Shown here: in pieces, positions 6,812-50,525 of the stretch
Layout: each line of letters opens with the position of its first letter
How positions within the stretch are numbered: the first letter of the stretch is position 1
Assembly (NCBI GenBank): GCA_024508725.1
Contig: JANINS010000003.1
Span: 1,488,001 to 1,552,000, forward strand
Direction: 5' to 3'
DNA: 64,000 bases
From: Chitinophagaceae bacterium
Lineage (GTDB): Bacteria > Bacteroidota > Bacteroidia > Chitinophagales > Chitinophagaceae
Notes under the pieces: model-generated
Databases searched by the model: none
Seen by the model: only the letters and a program-made list of their open reading frames with translations
What the model was told of the DNA's origin: nothing
Translations under genes and position numbers: made by a program

Positions 6812-6859
6812 TCAGCTGAAGTGGTACTATTTGGCTTCCGTTGCGTCGCACTCTTGTAC
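6812..6859 (-). repeat. Interspersed repeat family RA, copy 1
   Basis: Read on the minus strand it runs GTACAAG, AGTGCGACGCAAC, GGAAGCCAAATAGTA, then CAGCTGA. This is a near-consensus copy of the family described in the findings (AGTGCGACGCAAC subtype). It lies between the converging-from-left dxs promoter and the 3' end of the ABC exporter gene. Confidence 0.75.
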
Positions 6860-30777: not shown

Positions 30778-31953
30778 ATGGGTTTAAGGAGCGTAAAACC
30801 TTTATTTATAACGGCTTTCAGCCTGTTTTGCATACTTTTTTCAAACATATCTTCAGCACAGGGACATGGTGATAATCATGACCCGATCGATGCTAACCCT
30901 AAAGAAACACCTGCTCATCCCGATGCAGGTCACGAAGATGAAGATCATAAAGAAAAAGGCTTCGACGCTTCTAAAGTGATCTTTGGTCACATCCTGGATG
31001 CTCATGAGTATCACATCACCAGCTGGAAAGCTGCTGATGGCCATGAGAAGCATTTGTCTTTGCGGCTCCCTATCATTTTATACTCTCCGCAAAGAGGTGT
31101 TGATGTGTTCATGTCGTCTAATTTTCATCACGGACATGAAGCATATAAAAATTACCGCCTGAACGAAAAGAATAAGATCGTTCCGGTAAAAGCTGATGGC
31201 GTAACCATCGATACGGACACTAAGGTATACGATCTTTCTATCACTCGTAATGTTTTCCAGATGATGATCGCTATGATCGTTCTGGTGTGGTTATTCTTAT
31301 CAATTGCGAAAGCATACAAAAAGGGACAAGGTGTTACTTCTGCACCAAAAGGAAAACAAAACCTGCTTGAGCCGGTAGTGACTTTTGTTCGTGATGAAGT
31401 AGCTAAACCTAACCTCGGCCACAAATACGAGAAATATTTGCCTTACCTGTTAACAGTGTTCTTTTTTATCCTTGTTCCAAACCTGTTTGGTTTAATTCCA
31501 GGTACAGCAAACGTTACAGGCAATATCACTTTTACTTTCGTAATGGGTATCATCTCATTCGTAGTAATCCTGGCAAGTTCTAACAGCCATTTCTGGGGTC
31601 ATATCTTCAATCCTCCGGGAGTGCCGGGTTTTGTAAAGCCAATCCTGGTGCTGGTAGAATTCCTGAGTGTATTCATCAAGCCTTTTGCTTTGATCATAAG
31701 GCTTTTTGCAAACATGGTGGCTGGTCACATCATCATCATCTGTTTGATCTCACTCATTTTCATCTTTGGTAACCTGAGTGCTGGTGCAGGTTGGGGTGCA
31801 ACTCCAATTTCGCTTGCCTTTACCATATTTATATATTTTATAGAGGTGCTGGTTGCTTTTCTGCAGGCTTTCATCTTCACAAACCTTACTGCGGTTTTCA
31901 TCGGTCAGGCATTTGAAGGTGGAGATCATCACGGAGAAGAAGTACACGTATAA
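30778..31953 (+). CDS. atpB: ATP synthase F0 subunit a, with His-rich secreted N-terminus
   Basis: 391 residues, longer than the usual 250-290. It begins with a signal-peptide-like segment ending near ISSAQ, then about 50 residues rich in His/Asp/Glu (GHGDNHD, HPDAGHEDEDHKEK), then a periplasmic stretch, then five membrane helices with the essential Arg in FALIIRLFANMVAGH. It forms the proton half-channels next to the c-ring. The extension is a feature of Bacteroidota AtpB proteins and could bind metal or be processed; this is inference. First gene of atpB-E-F-H-A. Confidence 0.95.
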   Translation: MGLRSVKPLFITAFSLFCILFSNISSAQGHGDNHDPIDANPKETPAHPDAGHEDEDHKEKGFDASKVIFGHILDAHEYHITSWKAADGHEKHLSLRLPIILYSPQRGVDVFMSSNFHHGHEAYKNYRLNEKNKIVPVKADGVTIDTDTKVYDLSITRNVFQMMIAMIVLVWLFLSIAKAYKKGQGVTSAPKGKQNLLEPVVTFVRDEVAKPNLGHKYEKYLPYLLTVFFFILVPNLFGLIPGTANVTGNITFTFVMGIISFVVILASSNSHFWGHIFNPPGVPGFVKPILVLVEFLSVFIKPFALIIRLFANMVAGHIIIICLISLIFIFGNLSAGAGWGATPISLAFTIFIYFIEVLVAFLQAFIFTNLTAVFIGQAFEGGDHHGEEVHV

Positions 31954-31979
31954 CAAAGTCTTTTTTAAACTGTAAATAA

Positions 31980-32264
<285 letters not shown>

Positions 32265-32280
32265 TCATTGCAAAAAAAAT

Positions 32281-32316
32281 TGCACCCAACGCAAAGGGCC
32301 GAGGGTGCATTTTTTA
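32281..32316 (+). terminator. Terminator inside the atp operon, between atpE and atpF
   Basis: Stem TGCACCC (32281-32287) with GGGTGCA (32303-32309), loop of 15 bases, followed by six T. A-rich sequence just before it makes it work on both strands. Part of the transcripts should end here, leaving extra atpB-atpE message. Confidence 0.75.
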
Positions 32317-32363
32317 GTTCTGCCTCTATCCTCTGAAGGGTAATAAAAGCAGAATTATTGTGA

Positions 32364-32413
32364 GACCAGCTGCTGATCATAAATTGAACTTCCGTTGCGT
32401 CGCACACTTGTAC
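32364..32413 (-). repeat. RA repeat copy 7, between atpE and atpF
   Basis: Minus-strand GTACAAGTGTGCGACGCAAC, GGAAGTTCAATTTATGATCA, CAGCTGGTC. A mixed core (T at position 5, otherwise the first subtype). Confidence 0.7.
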
Positions 32414-32446
32414 AGAAATAACATAACTCAACAATAAAGAAGTAAT

Positions 32447-32941
32447 ATGGATTTACTTACACCGGACCCGGGGTTGATATTTTGGACCTTGCTTGCGTTC
32501 TTAGTTGTATTCTTTATCCTTGCAAAATATGCATGGCCATCAATTTTAAGTGGCCTGAAAGCAAGAGAGCAGGGTATTGCTGATGCTATCACTTCTGCTG
32601 AAAAAGTAAAAGCTGAAATGGCTACACTGAAAAGTGAGAACGAAGCTTTGCTTACAAAAGCAAGAGAAGAAAGAGCTGCGATGATCAAAGAAGCAAAAGA
32701 AACTGCTGATAAAATGATCGCAGATGCAAAAGATAAAGCGAAAAGTGAGTACGACAGGATCGTTGCTGATGCCCAGGTTGCCATTAACCAGCAAAAAAAT
32801 GCTGCTTTAACTGATGTAAAGAACCAGGTAGGTAGCCTTGTGATCGAAGTTTCTGAAAAGATCCTGAGAAAAGAGCTGGCTGATAAATCTCAGCAGGAAA
32901 AGTACATTCAGCAGTTGGCTGGTGATATTAAATTAAACTAA
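32447..32941 (+). CDS. atpF: ATP synthase F0 subunit b
   Basis: 164 residues: N-terminal membrane helix (LIFWTLLAFLVVFFILAKYAWP) and a long charged coiled coil rich in Ala, Lys and Glu, ending in a delta-binding region. It forms the peripheral stalk. Separated from atpE by 182 bases containing the terminator and RA copy 7. Confidence 0.95.
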   Translation: MDLLTPDPGLIFWTLLAFLVVFFILAKYAWPSILSGLKAREQGIADAITSAEKVKAEMATLKSENEALLTKAREERAAMIKEAKETADKMIADAKDKAKSEYDRIVADAQVAINQQKNAALTDVKNQVGSLVIEVSEKILRKELADKSQQEKYIQQLAGDIKLN

Positions 32942-32948
32942 TGTGCAA

Positions 32949-32998
32949 ATGTGCAAATATTGCAAATGTGCTGAAGAGCGATTTGCAAATCTGCACAT
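32949..32998. repeat. Imperfect hairpin of TGCAAAT words between atpF and atpH
   Basis: Arms 32949-32968 (ATGTGCAAATATTGCAAATG) and 32980-32998 (GATTTGCAAATCTGCACAT) are nearly complementary, with an 11-base loop. Further GCAAAT words flank both sides up to 33017. Non-coding. Confidence 0.65.
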
Positions 32999-33020
32999 CG
33001 GCAAATTTGCAAATTGAATT

Positions 33021-33584
33021 ATGCAGAGTCCACGTTTAGCAGGTAGATATGCAAAAAGCTTGGTTGATCTTGCCCAGGAAAAAGGTCAGCTTGAAGTAGT
33101 ATACAAAGACATGCAGTACCTGCAACAGGTTGTTAAGCAGAGCAGGGACTTCGTGAACCTGATCAAGAGCCCTGTTATTAAAGGTGATAAGAAGAATGCA
33201 GTACTGGAAGCTGTAACGAAAGATAAAGTGAGCGAGATGACAAGTGGCTTTAACCGTTTGCTCGTTTCAAAAGGCAGAGAAGCTGCACTTCCTGAAATTG
33301 TAAATGCTTTTATTGATCAATACAACGCCATCAAAGGAATCCACAGGGTGAAACTCACTACTGCAGTGGAACCAAGTGAAGAGCTGAAGCGTTCGATCAA
33401 GCAAAAAGTAGCTGTAGAAGCTGGTCTTGGACAAGTTGAATTGGAAACAAAAGTAGATCCTTCAATCGTTGGTGGATTTATTCTTGAGTTCAACAACAAT
33501 AAAGTGGATGCAAGCATTCTGAGAGATCTGAAAGACATCAGGAAGCAGTTCATGGACAATCATTATGTTCAGAAGCTTAGATAA
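33021..33584 (+). CDS. atpH: ATP synthase F1 subunit delta
   Basis: 187 residues. LAGRYAKSLVDLAQEKGQLE (helical N-terminal domain that binds alpha) and the C-terminal VDPSIVGGFILEFNNNKVDASI signature of OSCP/delta. Links F1 to the b-subunit stalk. A long palindrome and an RA copy separate it from atpA. Confidence 0.95.
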   Translation: MQSPRLAGRYAKSLVDLAQEKGQLEVVYKDMQYLQQVVKQSRDFVNLIKSPVIKGDKKNAVLEAVTKDKVSEMTSGFNRLLVSKGREAALPEIVNAFIDQYNAIKGIHRVKLTTAVEPSEELKRSIKQKVAVEAGLGQVELETKVDPSIVGGFILEFNNNKVDASILRDLKDIRKQFMDNHYVQKLR

Positions 33585-33592
33585 GGTACATG

Positions 33593-33663
33593 GTCTGACC
33601 GTCTCGGTCTGACCATTGATGATATTTGAAATAAAAGTTGAAGTCAGACCGGGACGGTCAGAC
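33593..33663. repeat. Long palindrome of GGTCTGACC words between atpH and atpA
   Basis: Arms 33593-33613 and 33643-33663 are 21 bases each and complementary except for one position that would be a G-U pair in RNA; the loop is 29 bases. Each arm is itself made of two GGTCTGACC units, which are small palindromes. No T-run follows. Confidence 0.8.
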
Positions 33664-33684
33664 TTTGTTGCCAGGAGCACTTTA

Positions 33685-33740
33685 GTACAAGAGTGCGACG
33701 CAACCAAAGCTAAATAGAGTAAAAAAGTTGGGTTCATAAA
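33685..33740 (+). repeat. RA repeat copy 8, before atpA
   Basis: GTACAAGAGTGCGACGCAAC, then CAAAGCTAAATAGAGT. A first-subtype copy, 50 bases upstream of the atpA ATG. Confidence 0.7.
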
Positions 33741-33771
33741 ACCCTCAATCAAACAAGATAAAAACAATAAT

Positions 33772-35349
33772 ATGGCAGAGATTAAACCCGATGAAATATC
33801 AGCGATACTGAGACAGCAGCTGAGTAATTTCAATGCCGGTGCAGACCTCGAAGAAGTTGGTACTGTATTACAAGTGGGTGATGGTATTGCCCGTGTTTAC
33901 GGACTGAATAATGTTAGTGCCGGGGAACTGGTAGAGTTCGAGAACGGTACAAAAGCAATTGCCCTTAACCTGGAAGAAGATAATGTGGGTGTGGTTTTGC
34001 TTGGGGAAAGTGGTGATATTAAAGAAGGAGCTACCGTGAAAAGAACAGGACAGATCGCTTCTATTAAAGTAGGTGAAGGTCTTGTTGGACGTGTGATCAA
34101 TACATTAGGTGAGCCGATCGATGGTAAAGGCCCGATCGTTGGCGAATTGTATGAAATGCCACTTGAGCGTAAAGCGCCGGGTGTAATTTTCAGAGAACCT
34201 GTAAAAGAACCATTGCAAACTGGTATCAAAGCGATTGATGCAATGATCCCTGTTGGTCGTGGACAAAGAGAGTTGGTGATCGGTGACCGCCAGACTGGTA
34301 AAACGGCGATCTGTATCGATACCATCATCAATCAAAAAGAATTCTACGAAGCAGGTAAGCCTGTTTACTGTATATATGTTGCCATTGGTCAGAAGGCCTC
34401 TACGATTGCAGGTATCATGAAAACATTAGAAGATAATGGTGCAATGAAATACACCACTATCGTTGCCGCTTCTGCATCTGATCCTGCTCCTCAGCAGTTC
34501 TATGCTCCATTTGCTGGTGCTGCGATTGGTGAGTTCTTCCGTGATACCGGAAGACCAGCTTTGATCGTTTATGATGATCTTTCTAAACAAGCGGTGGCTT
34601 ACCGTGAGGTTTCTCTTTTGTTGAGAAGACCTCCAGGACGTGAAGCTTATCCTGGTGACGTATTCTATCTTCACTCTCGTTTGCTGGAAAGAGCTGCGAA
34701 AGTTATTGCGAATGATGACGTTGCTAAGAACATGAACGATCTTCCTGCGAGCATTAAGCACTTAGTAAAAGGTGGTGGTTCATTAACAGCACTTCCGATT
34801 ATCGAAACACAGGCTGGTGACGTATCTGCATACATTCCAACCAACGTTATCTCTATCACTGATGGTCAGATTTTCCTTGAGGGTAACTTGTTCAACGCTG
34901 GTATTCGTCCGGCAATTAACGTAGGTATCTCTGTAAGCCGTGTGGGTGGTAACGCTCAGATCAAATCAATGAAAAAAGTATCTGGTACATTGAAACTTGA
35001 CCAGGCACTTTATCGTGAACTTGAGGCTTTCTCTAAGTTCGGTGGAGACCTCGATGCTGCAACTAAGTCAGTAATTGACAAAGGTGCAAGAAACGTGGAG
35101 ATCCTGAAGCAACCTCAGTACACTCCATTCACTGTAGAAAAGCAGGTAGCAATCATCTATCTTGGAACACAAGGATTGTTGAGAGACGTACCGGTAAAAA
35201 GAGTAAGAGAATTCGAACAACATTTCTTAGCTGAAATGGAATCGAAATTGCCTGATGTTTTGGGTGAGTTCAAAAAAGGCAACTTACCAGAAGATGGACT
35301 TAACAGGATGGTTGAGTTAGCTAAAAACCTGATGCCAGCTTACAAATAA
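33772..35349 (+). CDS. atpA: ATP synthase F1 subunit alpha
   Basis: 525 residues: N-terminal beta barrel, nucleotide domain with P-loop GDRQTGKTA (near residue 170), [16 protein letters not shown] Walker B region and the catalytic-face arginine in VSRVGGNAQ. Non-catalytic nucleotide-binding subunit of F1. The next gene is a TonB receptor, not atpG, and a terminator closes the operon here. atpD, atpC and atpG must be elsewhere. Confidence 0.97.
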
Positions 35350-35371
35350 GATGTAAGAGGTAAGAAATAAG

Positions 35372-35402
35372 AAAACAGCTCTGAGAGATCAGGGCTGTTT
35401 TT
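35372..35402 (+). terminator. Terminator of the atp operon
   Basis: Stem AAAACAGCTCTGA (35372-35384) with TCAGGGCTGTTTT (35389-35401), one G-U pair, loop GAGA, followed by more T. Confidence 0.85.
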
Positions 35403-37853: not shown

Positions 37854-37927
37854 GTACAAGCAACTACTGCAGCCGAAGAGTGCGACGCAACGGAAGTAGA
37901 ATAAAGAACTCAAAGCTGACCAAATAA
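37854..37927 (+). repeat. RA repeat copy 10, split
   Basis: GTACAAG at 37854-37860 is separated by about 18 bases from AGTGCGACGCAACGGAAG, followed by AAAGCTGACCAAATAAA. The right end is intact and stops 12 bases before the next ATG. Confidence 0.6.
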
Positions 37928-50444: not shown

Positions 50445-50525
50445 CGGTCGTTCTTTCGTTGCGTCGCACTCTTGTGCTGCCACAAGCACATCATCAGCTC
50501 AACGCTAAGTAGTAGTGCTCATTCT
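50445..50525 (-). repeat. RA repeat copy 13, rearranged
   Basis: Minus-strand GCACAAGAGTGCGACGCAAC then GAAAGAACGACC. On the plus-strand side, CAGCTCAACGCTAAGTAGTAG appears in the opposite sense, suggesting a rearranged or doubled copy. Confidence 0.5.

Follow-up and report, generated by a model that had tools for sequence, protein, structure and literature searches.

The gene of the ATP synthase ring subunit c (atpE) is followed in many Chitinophagaceae by a small RNA hairpin which, judged by its conservation, is an element tied to this gene and acts in cis where the subunit c cistron ends. As best explanation we propose that transcription is partially terminated at the hairpin and that its loop is read by a putative trans-acting factor, a scheme to which we give about an even chance.

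The window (the whole stretch of 64,000 nucleotides that was analysed) contains on its + strand, according to its list of open reading frames, the genes atpB (30778-31953), atpE, atpF, atpH (33021-33584) and atpA (33772-35349) in this order. atpE was named by its match to PF00137, the four others by the initial annotation and by general likeness, and among the matches listed the nearest named relatives of atpB are labelled Chitinophagaceae or wider Bacteroidetes groups. The TAA stop codon of atpE ends at 32264, and direct reading places the start of the outer stem of the hairpin 16 nt beyond it (Table 1). The initial annotation had described a stem followed by six T between atpE and atpF, and both are located and fold as it claimed; a G-C-rich stem directly before a T tract is what characterizes an intrinsic terminator. 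It had overlooked the inner helix with its conserved loop, as well as a second hairpin which follows at about 32315-32357 and which was not seen by eye in the other gaps.

Table 1. Features of the atpE-atpF region, in window coordinates
Feature	Position	Strand	Basis
atpE, ATP synthase subunit c, 92 aa	31986-32264	+	PF00137 match at 32064-32249
Conserved 39-nt RNA hairpin element (model R1)	32276-32314	+	R1 match (E 5.6e-14), folding
Outer stem, 5′ arm TGCACCC	32281-32287	+	Direct reading; covaries in 83 aligned copies
Internal loop, 5′ side AAC	32288-32290	+	Direct reading, alignment
Apical element GC-AAAGG-GC, two pairs and conserved pentaloop (GC 32291-32292, AAAGG 32293-32297, GC 32298-32299)	32291-32299	+	Core pattern in relatives
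Internal loop, 3′ side CGA	32300-32302	+	Direct reading, alignment
Outer stem, 3′ arm GGGTGCA	32303-32309	+	Direct reading; covaries in 83 aligned copies
T6 tract 3′ of the stem	32310-32315	+	Direct reading; T-rich at the same place in relatives
Second hairpin, UAGUUCUGC / GCAGAAUUA	32315-32357	+	Folding
Degenerate RA repeat copy, core GTTGCGTCGCAC at 32394-32405	32355-32433 (extent approximate)	+	Repeat comparison
atpF, ATP synthase subunit b, 164 aa; first gene 3′ of the element	32447-32941	+	Open reading frame, relatives

Taken from the window sequence alone, the folding of the hairpin is only modestly unusual (z -1.9, equalled by 9 of 200 shuffles), and that of the 39-nt core is somewhat more so (z -2.7, 5 of 200). 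An automated terminator scan of the same strand did not list the hairpin, presumably because its outer loop of 15 nt exceeds the limit of 8 set in the scan. Because the support from a single sequence was modest, the hairpin was compared with its counterparts in relatives.

The family set was assembled from 80 named loci, kept out of 112 found via atpB, and from 30 loci found via a search with atpF, which gave a match in 57 genomes including that of the window. It provided 108 atpE-atpF gap entries, 100 of them distinct; one place is entered twice, as L009 and as the window, and no gap was obtained from three loci (L045, L091 and L098). In 104 of the 108 entries and 96 of the 100 distinct gaps, the apical core GC-A[CA]AGG-GC, or a sequence close to it, is present, while the pattern used to count it, G[CT]A[ACG]AGG[GA]C, which was drawn up after the gaps had been inspected, occurs in shuffled gaps with a mean of 0.68 and a maximum of 3 per 100. 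The pattern is missing from L010, L024, L025 and L037: L024 and L025 carry near variants of the core, and L037 has a CGATTGG loop in the same kind of stem. As for L010 (genome G008), a hairpin and a run of seven T are kept 3′ of atpE and the conserved loop is lost, a natural loop-less variant within the family.

The stem was analyzed in an alignment (A1) of 83 of the 87 distinct hairpins, four (L017, L030, L057 and L063) being omitted for their odd loop lengths. All 87 had been chosen by the core pattern, and the six invariant positions of A1 are invariant by this selection; the invariance of the core in A1 is therefore not separate evidence, the unselected figure being the count among the 108 entries. 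Thirteen of the 14 stem pairs show changes on both sides, 92.7% of the cells are paired against 80.0% in shuffles, and the covariation score of 0.389 (0.158 in shuffles) was reached by none of 500 shuffles. The innermost helix takes part in these changes, with a C-G pair replaced by U-A in 7 of the 83 rows (the GTACAGGAC variant). G-U cells outnumber A-C cells by 34 to 5, which argues that it is as mRNA-strand RNA that the structure is maintained. The conservation in relatives that the initial annotation had named as a check on its proposal is thus found both in the core and in the covarying stem, and on this comparative evidence the hairpin is selected as an mRNA-strand RNA a short distance 3′ of the atpE stop. 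From the stop codon to a point 12 nt before the core, the distance has a median of 19 nt and quartiles of 15 and 22 nt, so that this point would lie just outside a terminating ribosome. A covarying stem which carries a conserved unpaired loop is the combination found in protein-binding cis-regulatory RNAs, and the conservation of the loop suggests a bound factor.

Model R1 gave one confident match in the genome of the window, the second best having an E-value of 3.57. At E ≤ 0.01, it matched in 53 of 99 genomes: 52 of the 60 from the family, many of which had supplied rows of A1, and 1 of the 39 from other families in the order. Among the family genomes outside the atpF-search set, 21 of 24 have a match. 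The exception from another family (G096, E 7.6e-4) is intergenic, with no atpE match nearby. Eight family genomes have no R1 match (G001, G008, G021, G024, G029, G062, G070 and G078); G001 is one without an atpF match, and G008, G021, G024 and G029 carry variant hairpins. Two family genomes have a second match, in G007 on the opposite strand at the same place and in G016 a partial one within coding sequence. When 295 genomes of the class were searched, eight had a match and seven of these belong to the family. Three R1 matches away from atpE were located, two in coding sequence (L349 and L350) and one intergenic with a poor stem (L348). By these searches the element is tied to atpE and usually present in one confident copy per genome.

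The gap also contains, before atpF, a copy of the RA repeat reported by the initial annotation, and its core was indeed found (Table 1). RA is degenerate and about 80 nt long, and its core reads CTTCC-GTTGCGTCGCAC-TCTTGTAC; comparison of 33 distinct copies revealed an AGCTG-like box about 25 nt upstream and a TTCAGCA-like box downstream. The window holds five exact cores (6840-6851, 32394-32405, 33693-33704, 37880-37891 and 50458-50469) and two with one mismatch, and the genome 184 exact ones, 82 forward and 102 reverse. That the hairpin is a part of this repeat was ruled out, since R1 has a single confident match in a genome with 184 RA cores; in addition, the 9-base loop core lies within 200 nt of RA only at the window copy and in L007 among the 33 distinct copies. 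Besides the place of the window (L009), the RA core occurs in only four of the 108 gap entries (L046, L047, L084 and L088), and 102 entries are without it. Being one of 184 copies and so rarely found in this gap, RA is no sign of a separation of the operon into two halves, as had been assumed.

Other palindromes were observed along the operon. The atpF-atpH gap (32942-33018) has inverted TGTGCAAATG-like units with the potential to form a long hairpin; matches to microRNA models in this gap were below the cut-off and reflect the palindrome. The atpH-atpA gap contains at 33592-33666 a long inverted repeat, GGTCTGACCGTCTCGGTCTGACC and its reverse, which adjoins a reversed RA copy. Finally, a strong terminator-like hairpin with 14 pairs and a T-rich tail is located 3′ of atpA (35371-35402), and the next long open reading frame past it encodes a protein of 739 aa which, by eye, is not atpG.

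Outside the family, in gaps from the class, which we take to be the Bacteroidia, and from the order, a hairpin whose pentaloop is different is frequent at the same place, the loop being above all C-GGUUG-G, and also GAUUG, GNAUG or G-GGUUG-C. A strict pentaloop rule, formulated after such sequences had been inspected, was satisfied in the class sample by 60 of 108 (mean of 0.35 and at most 2 in shuffles), by 11 of 17 from other families of the order (shuffle mean 0.07) and by none of 18 from other classes (shuffle mean 0.16). The 17 came from 19 loci, L159 having no atpE match and L157, in which a CGGTTGG hairpin is present by eye, being dropped from the pooled search. Among the 48 class sequences that fail the rule, some have bulged stems and others no such hairpin. 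The apical pentaloop is thus, as far as these sequences tell, lineage-dependent, mostly GGUUG in the class sample and A[CA]AGG in the family. Three intermediates connect the two forms: L037, from the family itself, keeps the outer stem and has a GAUUG loop, L156, from the order, has a 3x3 internal loop with GC-GGAUG-GC, and L302, from the class, a 2x2 internal loop with GC-GGUUG-GC. Because of these intermediates we would read the family hairpin as that of the class with its loop rewritten; going by their anatomy, the two would be one element.

A second model (R2) was built from 60 sequences with such a hairpin (alignment A2). Only sequences that showed the loop pattern and formed 9 or more of 12 pairs were admitted to A2; an evaluation of this alignment is biased by the selection and carries no weight here. 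In 119 class genomes, many of which had supplied A2 rows, R2 gave 35 matches at E ≤ 1e-3, 33 of them directly 3′ of atpE; one of the two that lie elsewhere is strong (G186:C9, E 3.0e-6). The out-of-sample test used 128 genomes of another order whose families had given A2 no row: 46 of the 47 matches at E ≤ 1e-3 are directly after atpE and one is elsewhere, and among weaker matches (E 0.001 to 0.1) 6 of 13 are after atpE. At E ≤ 1e-3, 74 of the 120 out-of-sample genomes with an atpE match have no R2 match; the element is therefore common and not universal, or else too diverged for the model and the strict filters. A scan of the phylum covered 118 genomes, 89 of them from other classes, of which two matched weakly (E 0.001-0.005), neither on a contig shared with atpE. 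The idea that R2 describes a loop common to terminators in general was for the most part rejected after seven R2 matches away from atpE had been opened, as four are in coding sequence (L342, L344, L345 and L346) and three are intergenic at other palindromes (L341, L343 and L347). L347, which is the G186:C9 match, is antisense to its flanking genes, and the atpE gap of the same genome (L187) has no such hairpin. L343 has at 1480-1507 on the match strand a GGTTG-loop hairpin with a T tail after an open reading frame of 123 aa, and it resembles an ordinary terminator.

With these data in hand, we give virtually no credence to the idea of a chance or mobile palindrome without function: the modest fold of the window sequence and the many-copy repeat in the same gap might have suggested it, but it is contradicted by the covariation, the strand polarity, the position and the out-of-sample test.

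What follows the stem bears on the mechanism. At positions +14 to +18, T makes up 54-73% of the bases in family-set copies and 52-77% in those of the class, against about 30% further on. Of the 96 family-set gaps, 84 have at least four T within the 8 bases past the last G-C pair (19.5% of control windows) and 42 a run of at least four T (8.7%); among the 75 class sequences, the respective numbers are 60 (21.7% of control windows) and 39 (3.4%). On the other hand, 54 of the 96 family-set copies have no run of four T and some of the counted T can pair with an upstream A, so that many copies would be weak terminators at best. Because T follow the stem, partial termination would be the leading mechanism. 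RNA polymerase would terminate at the hairpin in a fraction of the transcripts, as the G-C stem and the short T-rich tract behind atpE lead us to infer; abundant messages would end past atpE and fewer would continue into atpF-atpH-atpA, and the putative trans-acting factor, by reading the loop, would set the fraction of termination or protect the 3′ end. Of the terminator claimed by the initial annotation, what stands is a selected hairpin, on the mRNA strand and with T behind it in relatives, but a plain terminator leaves the gene-tied conserved loop unexplained. That such a strong intrinsic terminator ends the transcript and atpF is expressed from its own promoter agrees with the stem and T6 of the window; we nevertheless consider it improbable, since a terminator alone needs no conserved loop and since the gap from the hairpin to atpF has a median of only 43 nt, in which the promoter-like element TAnnTTTG is not enriched (2 of 96 gaps, shuffle mean 2.9). 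An internal promoter for atpF as a conserved feature was rejected on the same count.

The hairpin could instead act on RNA decay: polymerase would read through, an endonuclease would cut downstream, and 3′-to-5′ exonucleases would be stopped by the hairpin, the atpB-atpE segment outliving the rest. A stable hairpin at a segment boundary is what the malE kind of protection uses, passages of PMC5927463 describe this for hairpin-bounded operon segments in E. coli, the role proposed for BFA2 on the chloroplast atpH/F transcript offers a precedent (PMC6474325), and a guarding protein might bind at the conserved loop. However, protective hairpins of this kind in E. coli are without a U tract in the same passages of PMC5927463, whereas T is enriched here, and this enrichment, about five positions past the stem, speaks for termination and against a purely protective hairpin; we consider protection rather unlikely. 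A regulated switch, in which readthrough into atpF is toggled by a putative loop-binding protein, possibly an ATP synthase subunit that is not assembled, is a possibility that we entertain tentatively. It would agree with a conserved loop tied to one gene, usually in one confident copy per genome, and with a loop that varies as a unit between lineages while the architecture of the stem stays, but no alternative pairing was found for it. Pairing of the loop with nearby RNA was considered: of 99 contexts, 82 have a 5-base complement upstream and 11 a reversed word, a control that is unfair in coding sequence. The complements are mostly GCCCT, which looks like Ala-Leu codons of atpE and shifts its place, and among the rows listed the upstream sequence does not follow the GTACAGGAC loop variant; they were not counted as a pseudoknot, although one is possible.

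Whichever way the hairpin acts, the stoichiometry argument of the initial annotation, that partial termination balances a ring of about ten subunits c against one or two subunits b, is weak or at least incomplete. Subunit a is present in one copy per enzyme and alpha in three; atpB, being upstream, would rise with atpE, and atpA, being downstream, would fall, and therefore a part of the balance must be achieved by translation or RNA processing. Under partial termination, differences in translation would still be needed to separate subunits a and c. Translation signals are the usual explanation of how one operon yields some ten ring subunits for each enzyme. Bacteroidota are largely without Shine-Dalgarno starts, which would make an RNA element past the ring gene a natural alternative. 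Extended to the class, a control of ATP synthase in which the pentaloop is bound by a dedicated factor that decides how many transcripts continue past the ring gene, the factor being perhaps a subunit of ATP synthase or an RNA-binding protein of Bacteroidia not yet described, is a speculative reading that we would put forward with caution; the loop would presumably have been rewritten in Chitinophagaceae together with its putative binder. Since the conserved loop stays with one gene in much of a class, the search for a binding partner is straightforward, and the loop could mean an RNA control point on ATP synthase for a phylum of gut, soil and aquatic bacteria.

Among known RNA families, only a tRNA reached the Rfam gathering score in the whole window, and a search by E-value of the window region 31900-33800 and 20 loci listed only matches below the gathering scores of their families; at a hairpin the highest was that of tsr31 in L237 (35.8 bits for a cut-off of 50). 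In the literature, no title or abstract opening among the matches listed names such an atpE element, and an earlier listing under a motif number is possible; a survey of 2017 is said to have reported 224 motifs. The passages on ATP synthase or Bacteroidetes in PMC2864571 and PMC8040213 do not mention an atpE hairpin. As a control element, it is apparently previously undescribed.

Several systems invite comparison. The intercistronic hairpins of the puf operon of Rhodobacter set the ratio of the subunits of a membrane complex, likewise between cistrons; they concern phototroph genes, and we know of no relation between them and the atpE hairpin. In chloroplasts, subunit c is encoded by atpH. The PPR protein BFA2 is proposed in PMC6474325 to shield the chloroplast atpH/F transcript from exonucleases; a specific RNA-binding factor would there hold a boundary that lies among the ATP synthase genes and past the one for subunit c, as we suppose here; unlike our case, this concerns a PPR protein of the plant chloroplast and the atpF-atpA gap, one gene further on. 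The L17 downstream element is likewise a structured RNA recognized by the one gene that it follows, but, according to passages of PMC2864571, this is a ribosomal protein gene in Lactobacillales and Listeria and the loops are GNRA. For ABC importers in Clostridia, the abstract of PMC9045158 reports internal intrinsic terminators past the genes of substrate-binding proteins, which lower the expression of the downstream genes. These are also stem-loops between the genes of one complex with a lower U content in the tail; the genes are different, and the abstract speaks neither of a conserved loop nor of a single class-wide family. Finally, passages of PMC5927463 describe E. coli hairpins at the 3′ boundary of stabilized, more abundant operon segments, including one for the ring protein TatA (about 25 copies). 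The likeness lies in a hairpin which bounds the more abundant segment of an operon; the E. coli structures have no U tract and 17 of the 26 are located within the coding sequence that follows (PMC5927463, same passages), whereas the atpE hairpin is intergenic, is followed by T past its stem and carries a conserved loop.
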